From Victivallis vadensis (GTDB lineage Bacteria; Verrucomicrobiota; Lentisphaeria; Victivallales; Victivallaceae), in the NCBI RefSeq assembly GCF_003096415.1, contig NZ_QEKH01000012.1:62001-126000 (forward strand): 64,000 nucleotides of DNA, written 5' to 3'. This document shows positions 27,702 to 40,914 of the stretch, in pieces. Each line of letters opens with the position of its first letter. Position 1 is the first letter of the stretch. Below the pieces are notes generated by a model. The model did not search any database. It worked only from the letters and a program-made list of their open reading frames with translations, and had not been told where the DNA came from. The translations under genes and the position numbers were made by a program.

Positions 27702-29273
27702 ATGAAATATCGGAATGTATTGGTTGGCGGTTCTGTCGGCTTAGTGTTTTTGGCCGGGTGCAAATCGTTCGATGACTATCAGGAAGAGCGCGTGGCCTAT
27801 GCGGTGAAGCATTTCGAGCGTGCGCGATATGACAATATTGACGCGGAGCGCGTTCTTTCGCTCGACGAATGCGTCCGTCTCGCCGTGAAAAACAATCTCG
27901 ATCTGAAGGTGTTCGGGCTTGAAGAGCAGGTCGCGAAGGAGATGCGGACCAGCGAAATGCTCGGAATGCTGCCGGAGCTGAACGTCTCCGACAACCTGAC
28001 CGGGCGCAGCAACACCCCCGCTTCGAGCAGCCGGCAGGTTCACGGCACCGGGCCGGGCACGTACACCTATTCCCAGAGCCAGGACCGGAATGTGAACTAT
28101 CTGAACGTCGATCTGGCGTTGAGCGTGCTGGACTTCGGGCTTGCCTTCTTCAACACCCAGCAGTCGCAGGACCGCATGCTGCTGCGGCAGCAGCGCACCC
28201 GCCGGGCGGAACAGAATCTGGTGCTCGATACGGTGCGGGTCTACTTTCAGGTGGCGGCGGCGCAGCGCGCGATCAACGTCGCCGGGAAGCTGCTGGAGGA
28301 GTGCCGGAACCGTTACGAGCTGATCGAGCAGATGGGCGATTCGGGGCAGATCACGCCGTTCCGGGCCTTCGACGAGGTCAAGCAGTTTGTCGAGATGGAA
28401 AAACGGCTGACGAATTATATCCGCAGCTATGAGAACTCCTGCGTGGAACTGCGTTCTCTGCTCGGATTCTATCCGAATGCCGCGATCAGGGTGGATGATT
28501 CGGTGCTCGACACGGTTCCGGAATTTGATTTCCCGGAGATGGAGCTGATGGAGCAGATCGCGCTGATGAAACGCCCGGAGCTGTATGAGGTCGACATGCA
28601 AAAGCACATCAACGTGCTGGAGTGCCGGAAAACGCTGGTGATGATGTTCCCGAATGTGCGCATGTTCGTCGACTTCACCAACAGCAACAACAGTTTCCTC
28701 TATCACTCGACCTGGTGGGAGCTTGGAATCCGCGCCGCGTACAATCTGCTGAAGCTGCCGCAGCACATCGCCCGTTATCAGGCTTACAGCGCGCAGGTGG
28801 ATGCGGAGGAGGCCCGCACCTATGCGCAGGCGATCGCGGTGATGGCGCAGGTCCGCATCGCGCACGCCAATCTGGTCGCGACCCGCGAGCGGCTCAATAT
28901 CGACACGCGGGTCAACGCCGCTTACCGGAAGAATCTGGAGAAGGCGGAGGGCAGCAGCCGGGTTTCCGGCGAACTCTCGCAGCTGGAGCTTGCCCACATG
29001 CGCCTTGCCGCCGCCGAAACCGAAATTGAAAAATATCTGTCGCTCGGCAACTATTATGTCGCGTATTTCCGCATCCTGAATACCCTCGGCATCGAAAATC
29101 TGCATGAAGCCACGGTTGCCGAACTGAAAAAGCGTCTGGAGGACGAACGGATCCGCGCCGCGGAAGAATTGGCGCGCGCCAAGGCGGAGTATGAGGCGGA
29201 ACAAGCGAAGATCCGCGAGGCGGAGCAGCAGTTGGAAACTCCGGTGGAACCGCCTGCCGAACCTGCCGCCTGA
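27702..29273 (+). CDS. TolC-family outer-membrane channel lipoprotein
   Basis: 523 residues. The lipobox is FLAGC (Cys ~20), so it is anchored like OprM-type channels. SLDECVRLAVKNNLDLK is the typical first OEP helix, and long coiled-coil helices with two internal repeats follow (RTRRAEQNLVLDTVRVYFQV and AQAIAVMAQVRIAHANLV). The last ~60 residues form a charged Glu/Ala/Lys helix and a Pro-rich tail (ETPVEPPAEPAA), unusual for TolC and perhaps periplasmic. It is the first gene of an operon with the giant surface protein 24 bp downstream and three HlyD-like proteins, so it is probably the exit duct for that protein. Confidence 0.87.
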   Translation: MKYRNVLVGGSVGLVFLAGCKSFDDYQEERVAYAVKHFERARYDNIDAERVLSLDECVRLAVKNNLDLKVFGLEEQVAKEMRTSEMLGMLPELNVSDNLTGRSNTPASSSRQVHGTGPGTYTYSQSQDRNVNYLNVDLALSVLDFGLAFFNTQQSQDRMLLRQQRTRRAEQNLVLDTVRVYFQVAAAQRAINVAGKLLEECRNRYELIEQMGDSGQITPFRAFDEVKQFVEMEKRLTNYIRSYENSCVELRSLLGFYPNAAIRVDDSVLDTVPEFDFPEMELMEQIALMKRPELYEVDMQKHINVLECRKTLVMMFPNVRMFVDFTNSNNSFLYHSTWWELGIRAAYNLLKLPQHIARYQAYSAQVDAEEARTYAQAIAVMAQVRIAHANLVATRERLNIDTRVNAAYRKNLEKAEGSSRVSGELSQLELAHMRLAAAETEIEKYLSLGNYYVAYFRILNTLGIENLHEATVAELKKRLEDERIRAAEELARAKAEYEAEQAKIREAEQQLETPVEPPAEPAA

Positions 29274-29297
29274 TGCAAATGTGGGAGGAGTTGAACA

Positions 29298-32200
29298 ATG
29301 AAACTGAATGACTGGGATATGTTCCGGTTGGAAGACCGGGTGCTTTTTGAAGCCGCCGCCGCCGCCGAAATCGTCGACGCGGCGGAAGCGGCGCAGGACA
29401 ACCCGAATGCGAATGTGAGCGAAAGCGAAAAGCAAGCGCAGGAGGAGCGGGAGGCGTTGAAAAATGCGCCGCCTGAAAACCCGTCGCAGGCGCGTCCGAA
29501 CGGCGAGTCACAGAATATTCCCGGCGAACCCGCCGGAATCGACGCGGAGCTGGATAAGCTGATCAACGGGGAGATCGGTTCCGCCGACCTTGCCGCTGAC
29601 GCCGTTTTTTCCGATCCGGGAGTTGAGAATGGCGATGTCCCGACGGTCACGGTGGATTTTATCGACCGGGGCGGCACGGTTTCCACCGGCCGGGAGCTGG
29701 TGGTCATCAACTCCAGTGTCGCCGATGCGGACGACATTGTCGCGTCGCTGAAGCCGAATCAGGAGGCGTTGCTTCTGGATCCCGACCGCGATGCGATGGA
29801 GCAGATCAACGATTACTTCAACCGCCACGACGGCGTGAAATATGAGGCGCTTCACATTCTCAGCCACGGCAATGACGGTTACTTCGTGCTGAACGGCGAA
29901 GTTTTCAATGCGGAAAACTTCGATGCGGCGGAGTGGGCAGAGGTCGGCGAGCACCTGACCGGGGGAGGCGACATCCTGCTGTACGGCTGCAATCTCGCCG
30001 ACGGCAAAGCCGGGCGCGAGCTGATCGGGCTGATTGCCGACGCGAGCGGAGCCGACGTCGCCGCCAGCGACGACGCGACGGGCGTCTCCGGCGACTGGGA
30101 ACTGGAGTACCGGTTCGGCACGGTGGAGGCCGAAAGCATTGCGGTCGACGGCTATATGCACAACCTGACCAACTATCTTGTCGTGAATGAAAACAGCTCC
30201 GGCGAGGGATCGTTCGCGTGGGCGGTCAGCGAGGCGAACAAACATGCCGGAACCGATGAGATCACGTTCGCCGACAATGTTACGGAAATTCGGCTCTCCG
30301 GGGCTTTGACGATCGATGATTCGGTCACCATTTCCGGATACCTGAGCGGCGACGGAGAAAACATTGTCACCATCACCGCTGCCGCCAGCCGGAGGATCTT
30401 TTCGATCGACTCCGGCGCGAATGTCGTGCTGGAAAACCTCAATTTCGAGGGGAACGGCACCGTCAACTCCAATGGGGGAGCGATCTACAACTCCGGCAAC
30501 CTGACGTTGAATCACACCGATTTTTCAGGGTTCCATCTTTCCAGCGGCAATCGCGGCGGCGTGATCTACAATTATGCGGAAGGCAGTATTACGCTGAATA
30601 TCAACGACAGTGTTTTCCATGACAACTCGACCAGCGGCGCTGGAGGCGGAGTACTTTACAATACCGCCGATTCCTGGTACGGCGGTTATGCGACGATCAA
30701 CATTACCGATTCTTTATTTTTCGACAATCACGCTTCCGGCCATGCGGGGGGCGCGATCTATCTTAATACGAGTTCGGGGACATTGACTGTCGATGGCTGC
30801 ATATTCCGGGAAAACAGTGCCGACGGCGGCGGCGCGATCGCCAATTACGCCAAGCTGATCCTGAAGGATACTCTGTTCGAAAGCAATCATGCCGATTCCT
30901 ATGCGGGTGCGCTGATCAGCGGCAGCTCCGCCACGGTGACCGCTTCCGGAGTCCGTTTTGCCGGCAACTCGGCGACCGGGGACGGCGGTGCGGTGATGAA
31001 CTATAATGTCGGGACTTTCAAACAGTGTGTGTTTGAGGGCAATATCGCTTATGAGGGCAGTTCCGGTTTATTCGATGCAACCTGCGGCGGCGGAGCGATC
31101 TTCAACCAGAAAGGCAGCGGGAGTGCTTATCTGTCGATCACGGACTGCCTTTTTGCCGACAACCGGGTGGACGGCGGCAGCCATGCCGGCGGTGCGATCA
31201 ACAATTACGGCGGCGCGACCCTTGTAGTTGTCAATACGACGTTTCACGGGAACGGAGCGGCTTCCGGCGGTGCGGTCTACAATGACGCCAAAAGTAAATT
31301 TTACGCGGCCAACTCCACCTTTGCTTTCAATGAGGCGGTACAGGGCGACGGAGCGATTCGCAGTCTGGGAACGGCGTTTGTCCTGAACAGCATCGCCGTC
31401 GGCAACGGCAGCGGCGCCGACATCACGAACTCCGGGAAGCTGGAGATCCGGTATTCCGCTTACGGTTCCATCGACGGCTTTGCGGACGAGGCGGCGTTCC
31501 GGAATCACGCCGGGGAGAGTGTGGAGAGCATGTTTGAAAACGGCGGCGCGCTCACGGACAACGGCGGGCATTCAAAATCGGTTGCCCTGAGCGAGTATGC
31601 CGCCGGCTTTGCCGCGGCGGCGGTCCGTATGCAGACGGGGGACTCCGACGGGAGAATCTACGCCTTCTTCTACGGCGACGGCACTTCGGAAAATGAGGTG
31701 ACGGTGAGGGTTTCCACGCCGGGCTATTCCACCGCGACAACGGAACGGCAGCTCGACCATGACCAGCGCGGTTATCTTTACGGCAGCGCGCCCGGCAATA
31801 TCGGCGCAGTCCTGCGGGAGGGATATGTCGCATGGAGCGGCGCCGAAGCCGCCGGAGACGCAACGCATTTCTACACGGTTGCCGGACTTCAGGCGGCGCT
31901 GGATGACGAGAGCGTCGACACGCTCTACTGGCTGGATACGCGCATTTTGCTGAACGGGCAATTGACCATCGGCCGCGACCTTGCCATCGTCGGGCAGGGG
32001 AGCGGTGAAACGATTCTGGTTTCCGCCGGGAATGGAATTTTCCAGATACAGGCGGGCGACGTGACGATATCCGACCTCGCCATGACGGGAAACGGCAGGA
32101 GCATGTCGGGGGACGGCGGCGCGGTGGTGAACCGGGGGACGCTGACGCTTGCCGATGTCGAATTTTCCGGCCTGACGGTGACCGGCAATGGCGGCGCAGT

Positions 32201-35200
32201 CTGGAATGCCGGAGTGCTCACCGCGGTCAATGTCCTGTTTGCGGGCAACGCCGCCGCTTCCGGCGGTGCGGTGTTCAATCGCGGCAGCCTTTCGATTGAC
32301 AAGGGAATTTTTACCGGGAACAAAGCTTCCGGCAGCGGCGGGGCAATTGCGAACGCCGCCGGCACGGTGCGCATCGACAACTCTTATTTCAGCGCGAATG
32401 CCGCCGTCGACGGCGGCGCGGTCTGGAATGCCGGAACCGCGGCGGCAGTCAATTCTACCTTTGACGGCAATACGGCGGCCGGGAAGGGGAGCGCGTGGTT
32501 TGCGGCTTCCGGCGTCTCCTCGCTGGTCAACAATACGATTACGGCATTCAGCGATGATGCCGCACAGCAGAGTGCGGGCGTCTATGCCGCTTCCGGATCG
32601 AAACTGCTGGCGCTCAACAATCTGGCTGTCTCGAACGGCGCGTTCGATTTCTTTGCGGAGGATGGAGCGGCGGCGAATCTGAAGTACAATGTCGTTTCCA
32701 ACGCGGCGGGCATGGACGGCACCAACCTCGGCGGAGCCGATTCCCAATCGGAATTCGGCGGCAGCCGCTATACGGCCAACGGCGGCGACATGCCCGGCCT
32801 TCGCGTGCTTCCCGGCGCTTTCGCGTCGCAGGAACGGAACCTGATCGTCGGTGAAAAGGACGGCAGCTTTTACTTCACCACCGGCCGCGATACCGGGCAA
32901 ATGCAGTGGATCGCGCTCGACCCGGCGGGGACGGATCTCGTGACCGGATCCGTCGCGGAGGCCGAGGCGATGTACATCAGCCGGGACGGACGCGGCGCCG
33001 CGCGCATGTTGGCGGGTTTTTACGGAGCCGGAGCCTATGCGGGCAAGGCGATCTGGGGATACTATTTCACGGATCCGGCCAAAGATGTCACCGACATTCT
33101 GGAGGCGGATGTCTTTCTGTACATGCCGGAGCGGGGCGGCGTCAATGTGATGCTTACTCCGGCGATCAGCGACTACGCCTCGCTGGTCGGGAAAACCATC
33201 TATCTGGCGGATGGTTATATCGATGTGAAGTCGATCACGGTTTCCAACGACGCCGATTTCCAATATGATCCGGCGAATCCGGAGGCGGCGAATGTGGAGT
33301 TCCATTTCGTCGGCGGGGAGCATACGGTGCTTTCGGCGGTTTCCGGCGGCAGCATCCTGACCGTCAATTCGAGCAGGCTTCCGGATGGTTCAACCCGTTA
33401 TGACGCCGCATTGCCTCAGGTTGTCGTCACAATTGAAAATGTCGCGATGACGCGCGAAAATGTGTCGGCCGCGCCGGAAGCAGGCGGCTGCATCTATGTG
33501 GAGGGCAACGTTGTCCTGACTCTTAACGAATGCGAGTTCTACGGCAGTTCCGCCTCGTTCGGCGGTGCGGTCTACGGTTCGAGCGCGCTGTTTATTCAGG
33601 CGGACCGGGCCGGATATATCGGCCCGGCGATCACGCTTGACCGGTGTGAATTCCGCAACTGCTCCGCGAGCTACATGGGCGGGGCGGTTTATATCAACGA
33701 CATCATGGCGGGCAGCAGCGGACAGGCGTCCCTGGGGAGCAGTGCTTCCCGCCCCGGCAGCTTCACTCCGACCGGACGGGGCGATTATGAGGCAGGAAAA
33801 CTGACGGTGACCGGTTCGGTGTTCGACGGCAATTCCGCGGAAAAGGCGGGGGGGGCGATCGCCGTTGCGCCGGTTTCGCTCAACGATATGAGGTCTGAGG
33901 GGAAATATTCCTATTACATCCAGACCTCGTTTGTGAACTCGGAAAGCTATTTTCTAGTGGAGATCCGCGATTCCGTATTCAGCGGCAATGCCGCAACCCT
34001 TACGGCAAGCGGCGGCGGCGCGATTTTCATGGATCTGACCGGGCGGCAGAACGACGGTGCGGGGAAGAATTTCGTACTGGCCGATTCGACTTTTTCCGGC
34101 AATACCGCCGGGACTTACGGCGGCGGAGCGGTATTTTTCTGTGGCTACACCGCCGGTATGAGCGAGGTCGGCGTTGATGTGGAAATCGACGGCAACTTCT
34201 TCAGCGGCAACTCGACAGCCGGAGATGGCGGAGCGATCCGGTTGACGGAGGATTCCAACGGAGGATTCTATTCGTTCTTCATGAGTATCAGGATCAATGT
34301 GCTGAGCTGGCACGTCGTGGAGCAGGAGATTGAGTTGCGCATGGCTTCTGCGCCTGCTCCGGCGGCGATGGCCGTATCGCGGTCTGGAACTTCTTCCGGG
34401 ATCACTTTTGAACTGGATCGCAACACGTTCAGCGAAAACAGCGCCCTGCGGGCCGGCGGAGCCTTTTCGTCGTCGATCAGGAGCACCTCTTTGCAGGTGG
34501 ATATGATCAACTCCACACTGGCGTTCAACGCGGCCGGGACGAATGGCGGCGCAATTGATACGCGGTATGAAATGCGCCTGAATCTGATCGATTCCACTGT
34601 GGCATGCAATACGGCGGCGAATGGCGGAATTTCTGCCGACGCGGTCGTGGTCAATGTGATCAACTCGATCGTGCTCGGCAACGGCGGCGGAGAGTTCGCC
34701 GTCGCCAACGGCGGAGAGATCCATACCGCCTATTCGATTTACGGCCGGGAGGCCGCCGGAACGGTCGCGACGGATACTCATTCGCAATACGCGGTATTGA
34801 ATGAGGTGTTCGGCAAGGATTTGCTTGCGGCATCGGATTTGACCGCATACGGCACGCTGGCGATCAGTGCGGCGGGGCTTGCCTTCACCTCGGGAACGCA
34901 GGTGGCCAAAGTGGGTGATGATTTCTATTTCCTGCAGGATGGAGCGTGGGTTGATATGAAAGGCAACACCACGACGGTTTCACGGGCTGATTACATCATG
35001 GCGGCACAGGATTCAAGCGCCGCGAATGGAATCGTCCGCGTGGAAACCAGCCGGGGCGGGTTCAATGTCGGCGCCCATGCGATGGTGGAAATTTCCGTGG
35101 AAGTCAGCACCGAAAAGAGCTACGACGGCACCACCGCCGCACCGGTTGACGGAAACGGCGGTTACATTTACAGCGTCGACGGTATCGTTTCAACCAATGA

Positions 35201-36797
35201 CGGACTGCTGATTGGTGCGGAGCGGGTTGAACTGGAACAACTGGAATACACCGATAAGAATGCGGGCAGGGATATTCCGCTTAATGTCAAGGGCGTTCTG
35301 GGGGGATTCGAGGACGGCTCTCTTTATATCGTCACTTTCAGCGGCAAGGGGGATATCCATAAAGCGCAGTTGACCGTAACCGGCAATACCGATACACAAA
35401 TCTATAACGGCAAGGAACATGCGGTCGTCGGCTGGTCGGATGTCACTGGTCTGGTTTCCGGTGATGCCCTGCAAAGCGTAGCGGGCGTCGCCGCCGGAAC
35501 GGATGTCGGCGAGTATGATCAGGTGCTTTCGGATGCGGTGGTTGTGGATGCCGACGGCAACGACATGAGCGGCAACTACGAGATCAGCTACATCGACGGC
35601 AAGCTGACGATCAACCCGGCGAAGGTCATTGTAACCGTCGATGCCGTAAAAACCTATGACGGAACTACCGGCTACGACGTCGCAAGCGGCAACCATACGG
35701 TTACGGTGAACAGCGACGAGTCGGGGCTGCTGGATGCGGATGATTTCGTGCTGGAATCCTTCGAGTACGGCGGCAAGAATGTCGGGCAGTATACCGGAGC
35801 GGACGGCACGAACGGCAACGCCGGTTATATCGGCAAGTATGGCGAGAATAATTTCATCATTGAATATGTCTATACCGGCACGATTCGCCATGCCGTCATC
35901 ACGGTCGATGTCAATGCGGAAAAGGTGTACGATGCGAATACCCGTCTTGGTCACGATGAAGCGGATTATGCACTGGCCGGCAGGATCGGCAATGATGATG
36001 TGGATTTCGATATGGATTCGCTGCAGGCGGAATATGCGGATGCCAATGTCCATTCCGGCCGGGAGCTGACCGGAATGGCGGGCAGTCTGACCGGCGGCGA
36101 CAGCGGCAATTATATTCTGGTCCTGACGGGGAAAGGCGCCGTCACGCCGCGGCACATTACGGTGACGGCGGATGAGCAGAGCAAGCAGCGGGGAGACGAC
36201 GATCCGATACTGACCTGGAAGCATACCGGCGGTGTCCTGCTGGAAGGCGATTCCATCGATGGAACGCTGGTCCGGGAACCGGGCGAGGAGGTCGGGGACT
36301 ACACCATCCTCAACGATACGCTGCAGGTGAACAACCCCAATTATATCCTTCACTATGTGGAAAACCTGCTGCATATCACGGAAAATCCGCGCGACAACCA
36401 GCCGGAGAGGATTCCGGACAGCAGCATCAATGAATGGCAGCAGCCGTATATTTACAATCTGAATTATACGATGTCCACCGAGGCCCTCGGACCGGGCAGC
36501 GCCGGTTTTTACTGGGAACCGCGCGGGATTTATCGGTTCGAGGCTCCGACTTCGGTTCTTGATCCGATCCCGGATGGTGAAAATTCTGTCAGCGGCAGTT
36601 TGAACCTCCGTGAGGCGGATGACTCCCTGGAGGATTATCTGGAAATCGGCGGCGTCCGGTGGGAAACCATCCTGAATCGGCACACCGCGTTCAAGGATGA
36701 TTTCGAACTTCTGCTGGATGATTATATCGGCGATGCGTTTTATGAAAATGCCCGGGCGGAGGCGGAAATGGCGAAATTTTCCCGGGCGCTCTACTGA
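29298..36797 (+). CDS. Giant surface protein: LEPR-like N-terminus, DUF4347, Pmp-like GGAI/FxxN repeats, MBG/YDG domains
   Basis: 2499 residues. There is no Sec signal; the N-terminus reads FRLEDRVLFEAAAAA (residues 9-23), similar to the LEPR-XLL motif on giant exported proteins. Residues ~30-110 are Glu/Ala-rich. Residues ~130-290 are a DUF4347 domain (LHILSHGNDGYF, ILLYGCNLADG). Residues ~300-1900 form a long beta-helix with dozens of chlamydial Pmp-like motifs (GGAIYN, GGAIAN, GGAVYN with FxxN). Residues ~1930-2365 are three or four MBG/YDG-type beta domains (KSYDGTT, KTYDGTTGYD, KVYDANT). The last ~135 residues have no LPXTG, sortase or beta-barrel anchor. It is probably an adhesin exported by the flanking genes. 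Confidence 0.85.
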   Translation: MKLNDWDMFRLEDRVLFEAAAAAEIVDAAEAAQDNPNANVSESEKQAQEEREALKNAPPENPSQARPNGESQNIPGEPAGIDAELDKLINGEIGSADLAADAVFSDPGVENGDVPTVTVDFIDRGGTVSTGRELVVINSSVADADDIVASLKPNQEALLLDPDRDAMEQINDYFNRHDGVKYEALHILSHGNDGYFVLNGEVFNAENFDAAEWAEVGEHLTGGGDILLYGCNLADGKAGRELIGLIADASGADVAASDDATGVSGDWELEYRFGTVEAESIAVDGYMHNLTNYLVVNENSSGEGSFAWAVSEANKHAGTDEITFADNVTEIRLSGALTIDDSVTISGYLSGDGENIVTITAAASRRIFSIDSGANVVLENLNFEGNGTVNSNGGAIYNSGNLTLNHTDFSGFHLSSGNRGGVIYNYAEGSITLNINDSVFHDNSTSGAGGGVLYNTADSWYGGYATINITDSLFFDNHASGHAGGAIYLNTSSGTLTVDGCIFRENSADGGGAIANYAKLILKDTLFESNHADSYAGALISGSSATVTASGVRFAGNSATGDGGAVMNYNVGTFKQCVFEGNIAYEGSSGLFDATCGGGAIFNQKGSGSAYLSITDCLFADNRVDGGSHAGGAINNYGGATLVVVNTTFHGNGAASGGAVYNDAKSKFYAANSTFAFNEAVQGDGAIRSLGTAFVLNSIAVGNGSGADITNSGKLEIRYSAYGSIDGFADEAAFRNHAGESVESMFENGGALTDNGGHSKSVALSEYAAGFAAAAVRMQTGDSDGRIYAFFYGDGTSENEVTVRVSTPGYSTATTERQLDHDQRGYLYGSAPGNIGAVLREGYVAWSGAEAAGDATHFYTVAGLQAALDDESVDTLYWLDTRILLNGQLTIGRDLAIVGQGSGETILVSAGNGIFQIQAGDVTISDLAMTGNGRSMSGDGGAVVNRGTLTLADVEFSGLTVTGNGGAVWNAGVLTAVNVLFAGNAAASGGAVFNRGSLSIDKGIFTGNKASGSGGAIANAAGTVRIDNSYFSANAAVDGGAVWNAGTAAAVNSTFDGNTAAGKGSAWFAASGVSSLVNNTITAFSDDAAQQSAGVYAASGSKLLALNNLAVSNGAFDFFAEDGAAANLKYNVVSNAAGMDGTNLGGADSQSEFGGSRYTANGGDMPGLRVLPGAFASQERNLIVGEKDGSFYFTTGRDTGQMQWIALDPAGTDLVTGSVAEAEAMYISRDGRGAARMLAGFYGAGAYAGKAIWGYYFTDPAKDVTDILEADVFLYMPERGGVNVMLTPAISDYASLVGKTIYLADGYIDVKSITVSNDADFQYDPANPEAANVEFHFVGGEHTVLSAVSGGSILTVNSSRLPDGSTRYDAALPQVVVTIENVAMTRENVSAAPEAGGCIYVEGNVVLTLNECEFYGSSASFGGAVYGSSALFIQADRAGYIGPAITLDRCEFRNCSASYMGGAVYINDIMAGSSGQASLGSSASRPGSFTPTGRGDYEAGKLTVTGSVFDGNSAEKAGGAIAVAPVSLNDMRSEGKYSYYIQTSFVNSESYFLVEIRDSVFSGNAATLTASGGGAIFMDLTGRQNDGAGKNFVLADSTFSGNTAGTYGGGAVFFCGYTAGMSEVGVDVEIDGNFFSGNSTAGDGGAIRLTEDSNGGFYSFFMSIRINVLSWHVVEQEIELRMASAPAPAAMAVSRSGTSSGITFELDRNTFSENSALRAGGAFSSSIRSTSLQVDMINSTLAFNAAGTNGGAIDTRYEMRLNLIDSTVACNTAANGGISADAVVVNVINSIVLGNGGGEFAVANGGEIHTAYSIYGREAAGTVATDTHSQYAVLNEVFGKDLLAASDLTAYGTLAISAAGLAFTSGTQVAKVGDDFYFLQDGAWVDMKGNTTTVSRADYIMAAQDSSAANGIVRVETSRGGFNVGAHAMVEISVEVSTEKSYDGTTAAPVDGNGGYIYSVDGIVSTNDGLLIGAERVELEQLEYTDKNAGRDIPLNVKGVLGGFEDGSLYIVTFSGKGDIHKAQLTVTGNTDTQIYNGKEHAVVGWSDVTGLVSGDALQSVAGVAAGTDVGEYDQVLSDAVVVDADGNDMSGNYEISYIDGKLTINPAKVIVTVDAVKTYDGTTGYDVASGNHTVTVNSDESGLLDADDFVLESFEYGGKNVGQYTGADGTNGNAGYIGKYGENNFIIEYVYTGTIRHAVITVDVNAEKVYDANTRLGHDEADYALAGRIGNDDVDFDMDSLQAEYADANVHSGRELTGMAGSLTGGDSGNYILVLTGKGAVTPRHITVTADEQSKQRGDDDPILTWKHTGGVLLEGDSIDGTLVREPGEEVGDYTILNDTLQVNNPNYILHYVENLLHITENPRDNQPERIPDSSINEWQQPYIYNLNYTMSTEALGPGSAGFYWEPRGIYRFEAPTSVLDPIPDGENSVSGSLNLREADDSLEDYLEIGGVRWETILNRHTAFKDDFELLLDDYIGDAFYENARAEAEMAKFSRALY

Positions 36798-36811
36798 CGG
36801 GGAGAAGCGAA

Positions 36812-37516
36812 GTGAGATGGTGTGCGTTTTTTCTGCTGCTGTTTGCCGCCCCGGCATACGGCGAGGCGGTGAAGGCGGTGCTTTTTCCGTTCCGCGAGGC
36901 AGTCATTGCGGCGCGGGCGGAATCCACTTTGCTGCCTTACCGTTTCAAGCTCGGCGAGCCGTTCAAGGCGGGGGAGGTTCTCACTGCACTGGACGACTCC
37001 CGGTATGCGCTGGAAGTCAGGCGGGCAACGGAACAGGCCGACTTTGCCCGGGCTGTATTCGAGGACAGGAAGCAGTTGCGGGCCAAGAACTTCACCAGCG
37101 ATCACGAGCTTAAAAAAGCAGAATTTGACTTGTCTGTTGCGGAAAGCAGCCTGGCGGATGCAAAGCTGAATCTTTCGTATTGCATCGTGAAAGCTCCGTT
37201 CGCGGGCAAGCTCGCGGAAATCCGGACGCAGGAGTACGAAACGGTTCGTCCGGGGCAGCCGCTGTTTCGGATCATCGACGACAACCGGCTGCTGGCGGTG
37301 ATGAACGTTCCGTTGAACGATGCCGCGCTGACGACGGTGGGCAATCCGGTTGTCGTTTCGGTTTCGGGAACGGACCGGAAGGCGAAGGGAACCGTATATG
37401 AGGTGGCTCCGCAGGCCGACCACCGTACCGGCACCGTCCGCATCCGTGTGCTGATCGACAACGGCGACGGCAAACTGCGCGCCGGCATGACCGGGGAATT
37501 GATCCATGACGAATGA
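36812..37516 (+). CDS. Periplasmic adaptor (RND/HlyD-type membrane-fusion protein)
   Basis: 234 residues from GTG 36812 (GGGGAGAAG upstream), with a cleavable signal ending AAPAYG. The lipoyl-like half-motifs LGEPFKAGEVLTALDD and YCIVKAPFAGKLAEI flank a short helical hairpin (RRATEQADFARAVFEDRKQL...AESSLADAKLNL), then a beta-barrel segment ends in KLRAGMTGELIHDE. This is the layout of a minimal RND-type adaptor. It should bridge the inner-membrane partner and the TolC-like channel. It overlaps the following GAF-HlyD gene by 11 nt. Confidence 0.85.
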   Translation: MRWCAFFLLLFAAPAYGEAVKAVLFPFREAVIAARAESTLLPYRFKLGEPFKAGEVLTALDDSRYALEVRRATEQADFARAVFEDRKQLRAKNFTSDHELKKAEFDLSVAESSLADAKLNLSYCIVKAPFAGKLAEIRTQEYETVRPGQPLFRIIDDNRLLAVMNVPLNDAALTTVGNPVVVSVSGTDRKAKGTVYEVAPQADHRTGTVRIRVLIDNGDGKLRAGMTGELIHDE

Positions 37517-38846
37517 GGAACTTTCCGCCCGGCTGAAAGCCTTTGCTTTGATGCTGAAATACGGACACGACCTCTTCGGGGCCGGGGATTTCATGGATGC
37601 GGCGGCGCTGGCGGTCAACAACAGCCGCCAACTGCTGAATTTCCGCACCGCCACGCTGCTGGAACTTGCCGGCGGCAAAGCCCGCGTGATTGCGCAGTAT
37701 GGGCTGGCGGAGGCGAATCCGCACTCGCAGCTGGCGGTGCGGCAATGCCGGTTTGCGGAGTCGCTGCAGCTTGCCGATGAACCGCAAACCGTCACGCGGG
37801 AAAACGGCCTGCCGGATGAACTGGCGGAACATGACGCGGTCTATTGCTGTGTGAAACTGCGTCCGCCCGCGAACCTTGAGGAAACGGATTTTACTTTCAT
37901 CTGGCTGCTCGAATATGAAAAGAGAGTGCCGCCTTATGTCTCGAACACGGTGAAACTGCTGGCGGCTTCGGTTTCCGAAGCGCTTTATTACCAGCGGCTT
38001 TGCAAGAGCCGGTTCCGCCGGATGAAGCGCCATGTGAAAAAAAGGTGGATCTGGGGCGTGATTCTCGCCATGCTGACCGGCGCAATGTTCGTGCGCGTTC
38101 CCGAAAATGTCACGGCGGAGTTTACGCTGAAAGCGCCGGAAATCACGAGCGCCTACGCCTGGTTCGACGGGCTGATCGCGAAGTGTCTGGTTCAGGATGG
38201 AGAAACCGTGAAGCGGGGCGATGTGGTTGCGGAATATGACACGGAACAGCTCGCCTACCGGCTTTCCGGCGCCCGGAGCGCGCTTCGCGAAGTTGAGGCG
38301 GAGCTTGCGCTTGAACAGCAGAATGCTTTTACCGACGAGACGCGGCTCGGACAGGTACGGCTGCTTGAAGCCCGCCGCGACACGGCGAAAGTCGCGGTTG
38401 AGGAGGCGCAGTGGTATCTGGAACACTCCGAAATTGCAGCTCCGGCCGAGGGGATCGTGGCGCTGGCGGATGACCGTGCCGAATTGCTTGCCGGGAAAGC
38501 GGTCAGGACCGGCGACAAGCTCTTCGAGATATTCGGCGGAAACGGAATGGTTGCGGAAATACCGGTCGATGAACGAGAGGCGTCGGTGCTGTCTCAACAT
38601 TTCCGGGTGACTTTATTTCTGCACACCGCGCCGGAAACGGCAATTCCGGCTGAGATTCTGGAAATTTCGCATTACCCGGAGCTGACCGAACAAAAGACCT
38701 ACTGCTATAAAGTCCGGGTAAAACTGCAGAACGCCCCGGCCGGACTGCGTTACGGCATGCGCGGCGTCGCAAGGCTTTCCGGCGGCCGGGTTCCCATCGG
38801 CTACCGGTTGTTCAAGAGCTCCGTACTTTACTTCCGGGGAATGTGA
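37506..38846 (+). CDS. GAF-like cytoplasmic sensor fused to a HlyD-type adaptor
   Basis: 446 residues. Residues ~1-170 are a GAF-like cytosolic domain (FMDAAALAVNNSRQLLNFRTATLLEL, ending in a helix LLAASVSEALYYQRL). One transmembrane helix follows (WIWGVILAMLTGAMFV, ~182-197). The C-terminal periplasmic part has lipoyl-like halves (GLIAKCLVQDGETVKRGDVVAEYD and HSEIAAPAEGIVALADD) around a coiled-coil hairpin. A sensor on the inner side of an adaptor is rare and suggests that export responds to a cytoplasmic signal. A single base separates it from the M50 gene. Confidence 0.78.
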   Translation: MTNEELSARLKAFALMLKYGHDLFGAGDFMDAAALAVNNSRQLLNFRTATLLELAGGKARVIAQYGLAEANPHSQLAVRQCRFAESLQLADEPQTVTRENGLPDELAEHDAVYCCVKLRPPANLEETDFTFIWLLEYEKRVPPYVSNTVKLLAASVSEALYYQRLCKSRFRRMKRHVKKRWIWGVILAMLTGAMFVRVPENVTAEFTLKAPEITSAYAWFDGLIAKCLVQDGETVKRGDVVAEYDTEQLAYRLSGARSALREVEAELALEQQNAFTDETRLGQVRLLEARRDTAKVAVEEAQWYLEHSEIAAPAEGIVALADDRAELLAGKAVRTGDKLFEIFGGNGMVAEIPVDEREASVLSQHFRVTLFLHTAPETAIPAEILEISHYPELTEQKTYCYKVRVKLQNAPAGLRYGMRGVARLSGGRVPIGYRLFKSSVLYFRGM

Positions 38847-38847
38847 A

Positions 38848-40914
38848 ATGGCCGCCGCGGAACCGATGACCGGCATGTTGAGAACGGATGTCGAACTGAT
38901 CCGGGGCGGGACGCCGTTGCTTTTCGACCGGCAGGCGGATGCCTATTACCGGATTCCTCCGGCCATGCTCGATGTCGCGGCGTTCCTGACGGAATCCATG
39001 CCGGTTTCACAGTTCCTCGATAAACTCAGGTGCAACGGCATTTCGCTGGAGCGGAGCGAGCTTGTGAAACTGCTGGCATTCCTCCGGCAGAACAACCTGC
39101 TCGCTCCCGAATACGGCCAGATCGGCGTCAGGCGCGAGCGTCGGGCGGAGCAGAGGGAGAAGACCGCTTTTCTGCGTTTTTCGGCGGCATACCTTTTTTT
39201 CAGGCTGCCGCCGTGGCGCCCGGAGCGCTTTTTTGAGGCCATCAGGCCGTATGCGGGCTGGATCGCATCGAAACCGGTGGTTCTGGCGCTGCTGTTTCCC
39301 GCCCTGCTGGGGTATCTGCTGGTGGTCCGGGAGTTCGGGACGGTACGCACGACGTTTCTGGATTCGCTTTCATGGGCGGGGCTGGCGAAGTACTTCGCGG
39401 CGATTTTGTTCCTGAAACTGATCCATGAGGCGGCGCACTCGCTGGCGGCGATCCGTTTCGGCTGCCGGGTGCGCGGGATCGGGGTGGGGTTCATGGTGTT
39501 CTATCCGAAGCTGTACACGGATACCACCGACAGCTGGCGGCTGCCGCGCGGGAAACGGCTGCTGATCGACGCGGCGGGAATCATTACCGAGCTGCTGCTC
39601 GGCGGCATCGCGGCCCTGCTGTGGGCCTATTTGCCGCCGGGCGCATGGAAGTCGACGATGTTCTATGTCTTTGCGGTCAGCACCATTTCGACCCTTTTCG
39701 TGAACGGCAACCCGTTCATCCGCTACGACGGCTACTACATCTTCTGCGACCTGGTGAATATCGAAAACCTGATGGCGCGTTCCGGCGAATACGTCAGGCA
39801 GTGCTGGCGCTGGCATTTCCTCCGGCTCGGCGCAAAACCGCGCGGCGAACACGGCGTGCTGCTGTTCTGTTTCGGCGTCGGGGCGTTCCTTTACCGGATT
39901 TTCCTGTACACTTCGATCGTTCTGGTCATCTATCACAGCTTTGTAAAGGCGGTGGCCGTGGTGATGATGGTTCTGGAGCTTTACAGCATTCTGATTTATC
40001 CGTGCTGGCGGGAGATCTGGACGATCCGGGCGCTGTCGAAGCGTTCCGCCGGACGGGCGCGCTGGTTTCCGGGCGCAGCCGCGCTGGTGATTCTGGCGGG
40101 AATCCTGTTTCTGCCGCTGTCGTGGAGCATCTCGCTGCCGGGGGAGACGGTTCCGGCGGCGCGCCGGCTCGTGACCGTTTCCGAGGGCGGCTACCTGACG
40201 GCGAAGCTGCCGCGCCGGGCAAGGGCGGTCAGGGAGGGGGATATCCTGTTCCGGCTGCGTTCCCCGCAGTTGGAAAACGGAATCGAACGGCTGAAAACGG
40301 TTCTCAAATACGACCGGACGCTTTACGATCTTCAACAGCTTGATGAAAAGCTGTTTTCCGAAAGCCGGGTGACGGCTGAAAAAATCGCTTCGGACCGGCT
40401 CGGACTGGAAGAACTGGAACGCCGCCGGGAAAAACTGACGGTGCGGGCCGGAGCGGACGGCGTGTTTGTCCCGGCCCTGCCGGATATGTCGGAGGGGGCG
40501 TATCTGCCGAAAGGATTGCAAGCCGGCGAGGTCGTTTCCGAGAGGCTGATGGTTTACGCCTATGCGCAGGATCGCGATATCGGCAAGCTGAAAGAGGGAG
40601 GCCGGGCCGTCGTCTTCGTCCGGGATTCGCCGGCGGAGCATCCGGCCCGGATTACGCAGGTCAACCGGATTGCGGCGCGGCTGAAGGATTCACCGCTGCT
40701 TCAACACTACGGCGGGCCGGTTCCGGTTTACGCCGACGGGCAAAATCCGGGAGAATATTCGTCGGTTCTCGCTCTTTACCGGATCGAACTGGTGCTGACG
40801 GAGGCCGCCGGCCTGCTGCCGGGGCGCTGCGTCAGTGTGGAAATACGAAATGCGGAACGGCTGGGCGAACGCATCGGGAAGCTGATCCTTTCCGTCATCC
40901 GGAGAGAGTTCTGA
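38848..40914 (+). CDS. PqqD-like domain + M50 site-2-protease + HlyD-type membrane protein
   Basis: 688 residues. Residues ~12-90 resemble PqqD/RiPP-recognition modules (LLFDRQADAYYRIPPAMLDVAAFL). Residues ~130-430 are a polytopic M50 metalloprotease core with HEAAH (His193-His197) and the second metal motif NPFIRYDGYY (Asn288, Asp293). Residues ~440-670 are a HlyD-like arm (GGYLTAKLPRRARAVREGDILFRLRSPQ, helical hairpin, LTVRAGADGVFVPAL). The protein may recognise the substrate N-terminus, process it in the membrane and join the adaptor ring. It ends the operon. A small TCCCG-GAAA-CGGGA hairpin (40948-40961) lies beyond, without a T run. Confidence 0.82.
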   Translation: MAAAEPMTGMLRTDVELIRGGTPLLFDRQADAYYRIPPAMLDVAAFLTESMPVSQFLDKLRCNGISLERSELVKLLAFLRQNNLLAPEYGQIGVRRERRAEQREKTAFLRFSAAYLFFRLPPWRPERFFEAIRPYAGWIASKPVVLALLFPALLGYLLVVREFGTVRTTFLDSLSWAGLAKYFAAILFLKLIHEAAHSLAAIRFGCRVRGIGVGFMVFYPKLYTDTTDSWRLPRGKRLLIDAAGIITELLLGGIAALLWAYLPPGAWKSTMFYVFAVSTISTLFVNGNPFIRYDGYYIFCDLVNIENLMARSGEYVRQCWRWHFLRLGAKPRGEHGVLLFCFGVGAFLYRIFLYTSIVLVIYHSFVKAVAVVMMVLELYSILIYPCWREIWTIRALSKRSAGRARWFPGAAALVILAGILFLPLSWSISLPGETVPAARRLVTVSEGGYLTAKLPRRARAVREGDILFRLRSPQLENGIERLKTVLKYDRTLYDLQQLDEKLFSESRVTAEKIASDRLGLEELERRREKLTVRAGADGVFVPALPDMSEGAYLPKGLQAGEVVSERLMVYAYAQDRDIGKLKEGGRAVVFVRDSPAEHPARITQVNRIAARLKDSPLLQHYGGPVPVYADGQNPGEYSSVLALYRIELVLTEAAGLLPGRCVSVEIRNAERLGERIGKLILSVIRREF

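Follow-up and report, generated by a model that had tools for sequence, protein, structure and literature searches.

A candidate TolC-dependent export operon for giant, N-terminally tagged surface proteins in Victivallis vadensis and other bacteria

We identified a five-gene operon in a 64,000-nucleotide stretch of the Victivallis vadensis genome (assembly GCF_003096415.1, contig NZ_QEKH01000012.1, positions 62,001 to 126,000; hereafter the window), which encodes a TolC-family lipoprotein, a giant surface protein and three proteins with membrane-fusion protein (MFP, or adaptor) domains. On balance we favor the view that this operon encodes an apparatus dedicated to the TolC-dependent export and processing of giant proteins with an LExRxLF[DE]AA tag at the N-terminus, and that its motor is encoded outside the operon. 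The question addressed here is by what route giants of thousands of residues leave the cell when they have neither a Sec-like signal core nor an ABC exporter. If the reading is true, it would describe a new export route present in several phyla, including SAR11, and would give a role to LEPR-XLL tags and to DUF4347. The product of the last gene of the operon, here called the M50 protein, is in its predicted structure a single chain that joins a RiPP-leader-binding domain (RRE), a site-2 protease (S2P) and a MacA/MexA-type adaptor. The features of the operon, in window coordinates, are as follows:

27702..29273, + strand: TolC-family outer-membrane lipoprotein (OEP; PF02321, 1.7e-23), with a lipobox-like ...VFLAGC at residues 15-20
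29298..36797, + strand: giant surface protein of 2499 aa, the proposed substrate (DUF4347, 4e-38; Chlam_PMP repeats, MBG_2, YDG)
29322..29375, + strand: N-terminal tag FRLEDRVLFEAAAAAEIV of the giant, residues 9-26, LExRxLF[DE]AA / LEPR-XLL-type (profile A2)
29697..30143, + strand: DUF4347 domain of the giant, with a caspase/CHAT-like (clan CD) fold in the AlphaFold2 (AF2) model and with His (SHG) and Cys (YGC) placed as in clan CD
36812..37516, + strand: periplasmic adaptor (MFP) with a signal peptide and a GTG start, without a partner transporter (TIGR01730 RND_mfp, 137.3 bits against a cut-off of 94.9)
37506..38846, + strand: GAF-like domain, transmembrane segment (TM) and MFP in one protein (HlyD_3, 2.9e-13)
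38848..40914, + strand: RRE, site-2 protease and MFP fusion of 688 aa, the M50 protein (Pfam, NCBIfam, AF2 model)
38863..39114, + strand: RRE (PqqD-like) domain of the M50 protein, residues 6-89 (VIA-align Z 8.4-8.6 to RRE domains)
39196..39939, + strand: site-2 protease (M50) core, residues 117-364 (Methanocaldococcus jannaschii S2P 3b4r, Z 8.4)
39424..39438, + strand: HEAAH zinc-binding motif, H193-H197 (HExxH in 73/73 full-length relatives)
39709..39732, + strand: NPFIRYDG with the third zinc ligand, D294 (strict NxNPxxRxDG in 60/73 relatives)
40063..40887, + strand: membrane-fusion (adaptor) domain of the M50 protein, residues 406-680 (MacA, MexA, AcrA and EmrA at Z 12-15; Foldseek probability 1.00)

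The five open reading frames (ORFs) run in one direction in the order TolC, giant, adaptor, GAF-like-TM-MFP and RRE-M50-MFP, with 24 bp between TolC and the giant, 14 bp between the giant and the adaptor, an overlap of 11 bp between the adaptor and GAF-like genes, and 1 bp before the M50 gene. The first-pass annotation of this DNA had described five co-directional genes with gaps of 24 bp or less or overlaps, and this observation was confirmed, with the genes where it had placed them. Pfam placed HlyD_3 and HlyD_D23 in the adaptors, and Peptidase_M50 plus a weak HlyD match in the product of the last gene. No ABC, RND or MFS protein was found within the operon or the window flanks. From its sequence, the TolC-family lipoprotein is proposed to be the dedicated outer-membrane duct of the system, and the GAF-like-TM-MFP protein is predicted to be an inner-membrane adaptor with a cytoplasmic sensor-like domain. 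The GAF assignment is based on Pfam matches in relatives (GAF_2 in 2 of 19 members, and PF01590 at 5.7e-10 in a Verrucomicrobiota relative), by which the domain is real in those relatives; a profile of the GAF-like region gave nothing convincing against PDB sequences. The domain may gate export, as the first-pass annotation had suggested.

We also found that the adjacent genes MFP, GAF-MFP and M50-MFP (hereafter the trio) are conserved well beyond this genome, in gut Lentisphaerota as well as in SAR11 of the ocean. The trio is present in Lentisphaeria, Desulfobacterota, a planctomycete metagenome-assembled genome (MAG), Methylobacterium, Thalassospira, Gammaproteobacteria and SAR11, with a divergent form in other Verrucomicrobiota families. 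Many matches in the survey of this phylum were generic adaptors near E 1e-5, and the analysis kept just those that were full-length and below about 1e-60. Of the 65 non-redundant loci with room for all three genes, 56 have them side by side in this order, and a TolC of the same family adjoins the trio in many relatives. Recurrence of the gene order, which had been suggested as a check on the system, is thus seen in Lentisphaeria and in other phyla, and the SAR11 order TolC-giant-adaptor-GAF.adaptor-M50.adaptor is identical to that of the window. It recurs across phyla, and the operon arrangement is therefore far beyond chance. Distance matrices within the trio agree with one another (r 0.93-0.96), and the TolC and M50 trees correlate at r=0.88. 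The tree resolves a Lentisphaeria-centred clade in which Desulfobacterota are nested, a proteobacterial clade and a Verrucomicrobiota clade.

The AF2 model of the M50 protein (pLDDT 79, pTM 0.51) was compared with the PDB by VIA-align and Foldseek. Residues 6-89 match RRE domains, including those in leader-peptide complexes (TbiB1 and lasso B1): TigE 8vpo at Z 8.6, TbiB1 5v1u at Z 8.5 and lasso B1 6jx3 at Z 8.4, where a Z of about 8.5 is modest for single small domains. The fold calls for the RRE and S2P agree with the order of secondary structure in PqqD and with a hit to NF041824, the daptide protease model, over residues 18-381 (8.4e-42, 143.6 bits, under the curated equivalog score of 300 bits). 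Among 20 members of the family, Pfam detected Peptidase_M50 in all 20 and PqqD in one. The 13 relatives that depart from the strict third-ligand pattern include nine that were inspected, all of which have [KR][YF]DGY. In daptide biosynthesis, the RRE-S2P protein MpaP has been described as a leader peptidase that takes off leaders with the motif ELExMEAP (PMC10036551). This motif is loosely like the LExRxLF[DE]AA tag of the giants, a likeness that fits related RRE-S2P readers. Earlier it had been proposed that the M50 protein recognizes and perhaps cleaves the N-terminus of the substrate, and this part of the proposal gains from the leader-binding fold of the RRE, from zinc ligands kept in the sequences checked and from a tag that tracks the trio.

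The giants start with [FY]xLE[DE]R[VI]LF[DE][AG]A; those of SAR11 begin FIExLEQRIMLDGAGAS and those of Verrucomicrobiota LEPLEQRMLLSGDG or LEALETRMLLSAT. The SAR11 giants and three Verrucomicrobiota giants passed the LEPR-XLL model NF012209 (threshold 17 bits). The window giant gave no match to this model, and its tag is a close variant of LEPR-XLL. Within the first 45 residues of the window giant the longest uncharged run is 5, compared with 15 in its neighbours, and there is no Sec-like hydrophobic core, as is the case for the giants examined in general. Hydropathy alone (Kyte-Doolittle window) had been tried as a signal criterion and failed to separate giants from true signals, and the longest uncharged run was used instead. 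No RTX families were found in the window giant by a Pfam scan.

The occurrence of the tag follows that of the trio. A 31-column profile of the tag (profile A2) was run over 61 Lentisphaeria genomes and matched in 31 of the 35 trio-positive genomes compared with 1 of the 26 trio-negative ones, with a number of matches that roughly follows the number of loci. DUF4347 has a similar distribution (30/35 versus 2/26, p=5e-10). Genomes with a broken M50 gene (G003) or just a remnant of it (G002) likewise have no tag. Among 147 evenly drawn SAR11 genomes, the five with the M50 protein were the same five that had DUF4347 (about 2e-9 by a simple count that ignores relatedness). The co-occurrence with LEPR-XLL/DUF4347 giants that the first-pass annotation had named as a check is therefore borne out by these counts. 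In the SAR11 genome G098, a single 22-kb gene (895694-917707; L210-L275) between TolC and the trio encodes a tagged giant of 7337 aa and takes up about 1.7% of a 1.31-Mb genome.

The AF2 model of the DUF4347 domain (pLDDT 94) is closest to Tce1, a type VI secretion system (T6SS) protein of P. aeruginosa (9qpe, Z 14.6), followed by SAVED-CHAT (Z 9.2) and by C11, the MARTX CPD, legumain and caspases (Z 6-7.5). Its fold is of the caspase/CHAT type, and the His and the Cys each end one of two adjacent strands, as in clan CD. In alignment A4 the Cys is invariant (20/20) and the His is present in 18 of 20, with two members that lack it. Behind the tag, the giants of both Lentisphaeria and SAR11 thus have a probable peptidase domain of clan CD.

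Given these components, we can outline how the system may work. The cytoplasmic RRE of the M50 protein would bind the tag, as its fold and the co-occurrence suggest, and the S2P domain would trim the leader at the membrane, as the kept zinc ligands and the example of daptide MpaP suggest. The folds and the operon suggest that the soluble adaptor could join the adaptor domains of the GAF-TM and M50 proteins in a ring of mixed composition, docked on the dedicated TolC, and the unfolded giant would leave the cell in one step. A dedicated type I ABC exporter would not be needed, judging from its absence from genomes with the system, and the motor would not be encoded in the operon.

For the motor, a SecA-family ATPase is the leading candidate on account of a truncated SecA paralogue beside the M50 gene in a sister clade. 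A gene for such a protein was found right after the M50 gene in 10 of the 15 non-Lentisphaeria Verrucomicrobiota loci, several of them with LEPR-XLL giants:

L195-L199, L201-L203, L208 and L209, for example L197:11952-13946: SecA-like ATPase loci, with TolC, adaptor and LEPR-XLL giants alongside

These proteins are about 620-680 aa long with intact ATPase motifs. They have SecA_DEAD, PPXD and the P-loop and lack the wing/scaffold domain and SEC-C (four scanned by Pfam or three printed in full). The trio and TolC would thus make up a duct with built-in leader recognition and processing, plausibly driven by a general or dedicated ATPase of the SecA family. A fuller version of the same idea, which we put forward only tentatively, is a new kind of TolC-dependent secretion in which the RRE-S2P-adaptor protein reads and removes the tag, and giants are driven through the adaptors and TolC, without an ABC exporter, by a SecA-family ATPase: in Verrucomicrobiota the dedicated truncated paralogue, in other hosts the housekeeping SecA. 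In SAR11, whose genomes with the system are very small, few proteins are left as possible motors. Genome G098 is a single contig of 1,308,759 bp in which one stretch is masked; besides the operon, its inventory shows a single SecA and a single ABC exporter, which is MsbA by best family. An RND-like protein with its own adaptor is encoded elsewhere in that genome.

Several points weigh against the export apparatus that we favor. Co-occurrence of the trio with giants is not a demonstration of export. Many of the sampled MAGs are incomplete, and related genomes give counts that are not independent. The nearest characterised relative of the RRE-S2P half, MpaP, is a peptidase and not a translocase. 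No SecA-like gene was found near the trio in Lentisphaeria or SAR11 loci other than a housekeeping-type SecA near L126, with Lentisphaeria genomes not searched for a second SecA. Finally, in five rumen Victivallales loci an ABC-HlyD pair lies upstream of TolC, giant and trio; the pair is seen in L072, L080 and L081, only the HlyD part is visible in L077, and L158 is seen up to the contig end.

These rumen loci, where the ABC-HlyD pair is directly upstream, are also an argument for canonical type I secretion, in which an ABC-HlyD pair encoded in the operon or elsewhere would move the giant through the operon TolC and the trio would just trim, anchor or regulate. The window genome does encode an unlinked HlyB-type ABC (655.7 bits) and a HlyD that passes TIGR01843, with no TolC of its own nearby. 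We searched for an ABC partner by neighbourhood scan, by co-occurrence and with the families TIGR03375, TIGR01842 and PF00664. An ABC was linked in just five loci and was rejected as a constant part of the system. The HlyB/LssB-type ABC, accompanied by a HlyD of its own, is present in 38 of the 61 Lentisphaeria genomes and shows no association with the trio (19 of 35 trio-positive versus 19 of 26 trio-negative genomes, p=0.18). It is lacking in 13 genomes with both trio and DUF4347, one of them a single-contig genome (G017), and 18 of the 19 trio-negative genomes that bear it have no tagged protein. SAR11 genomes with the system have ABC exporters of the MsbA type only. Taken together, type I export is the most serious of the alternatives, and we consider it unlikely. 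As a separate observation, the adaptor gene of one genus (g7) is directly preceded by genes for an ABC-2 type ATPase and permease-like proteins (L126:2778-7666, also L039).

On the reading that follows the first-pass annotation, the complex of M50 protein, GAF protein and adaptor would itself be the channel and the engine, powered by proton-motive force or by nothing, with no separate motor. In its favor, the loci of Lentisphaeria and SAR11 have no other gene that is linked with any consistency: no RND or MFS transporters were among the neighbour groups recurring in at least three trio loci, and the consistently linked ABC, RND or MFS partner that had been named as contrary evidence was not found in relatives, where the ABC-HlyD pair is linked in five rumen loci. 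The claim of a system free of ABC and engine stands in so far as the window operon and its flanks lack a transporter, the type I ABC does not track the trio and SAR11 has MsbA only. It falls short in the five rumen loci and in those loci of other Verrucomicrobiota whose operons contain the truncated SecA ATPase. Site-2 proteases are not known to translocate proteins. A role of the M50 protein as inner-membrane core or engine is consequently not established, and we regard an engine of this kind as improbable.

M50 proteases often take part in regulated proteolysis. The trio could, like RseP, be a surveillance or signalling device whose S2P responds to a blocked duct or giant by cutting a regulator, with export by Sec or another route, and the GAF-like domain would suit such a role. 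We give this very little credence since the RRE fold and the tracking of the tag fit direct substrate recognition better, and the giants examined lack a Sec-like hydrophobic core. That the trio exports a small ribosomal peptide of the daptide kind and the giant is merely a neighbour is hardly credible. The protease half does have a daptide protease as its best NCBIfam match (8e-42, below cut-off), but giants with DUF4347 or the tag follow the trio in each of two separate samples, and neighbour clustering, which covered only genes of at least 100 aa, gave no recurring small gene.

The operon is flanked by housekeeping or sugar genes (dnaK, groEL, PTPS, Fur, DUF4432, a glycosidase and an AraC regulator), and a promoter and terminator scan across it was uninformative. 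Two additional M50-protein copies are encoded in the V. vadensis genome (identities of 50 and 41%), both of which adjoin a GAF-adaptor gene with TolC and tagged genes close by. At the second copy in the genome (L004:7346-7957, reverse strand) the tagged ORF is just 203 aa long and is perhaps a decayed giant. In two small Verrucomicrobiota genomes of 2.3-2.5 Mb (L205 and L206), the RRE-M50-MFP gene has a different setting, next to a gene that may be radical-SAM-like and to a series of conserved genes with other functions, and the protein may be in another use there.

In conclusion, the genes and models are consistent with a new kind of export route, although an ABC or Sec route may yet prove to be the mover. 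No description of the system was found in the open-licence PMC literature, although an earlier description is possible, and no described function was found for LEPR-XLL tags or DUF4347. In common with type I export of giant adhesins (HlyBD-TolC, LapBCE-LapA), the system has a TolC-type duct, HlyD-type adaptors and a repeat-rich giant without a Sec-like core. By the hallmarks of type I, the window has three HlyD-type adaptor domains, none of which passes TIGR01843 type_I_hlyD, and a TolC-family factor, and has no dedicated linked ABC and no RTX. It differs from type I in the lack of an ABC ATPase in the window operon and of any beyond MsbA in the SAR11 genome, in the N-terminal position of the tag, in the fusion of RRE-S2P to an adaptor and in the number of adaptors, which is three. 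Tripartite pumps with several adaptors, such as TriABC-OpmH, also have more than one adaptor per outer-membrane channel, but RND, MFS and ABC transporters are all missing from the window operon. The accessory Sec system (SecA2), which serves giant serine-rich adhesins in Gram-positives, is similar in its dedicated SecA paralogue, a likeness that applies to the Verrucomicrobiota sister clade only, as the window locus has no SecA paralogue. The SecA-like protein, however, lacks the wing/scaffold, SecY2 was not seen beside it, and it is coupled to adaptors and TolC. The M50 protein shares with daptide MpaP an RRE placed N-terminal to a site-2 protease and a loosely similar leader motif (PMC10036551), whereas the window protein is fused to an adaptor, is linked to TolC and has a giant rather than a small peptide as its partner.

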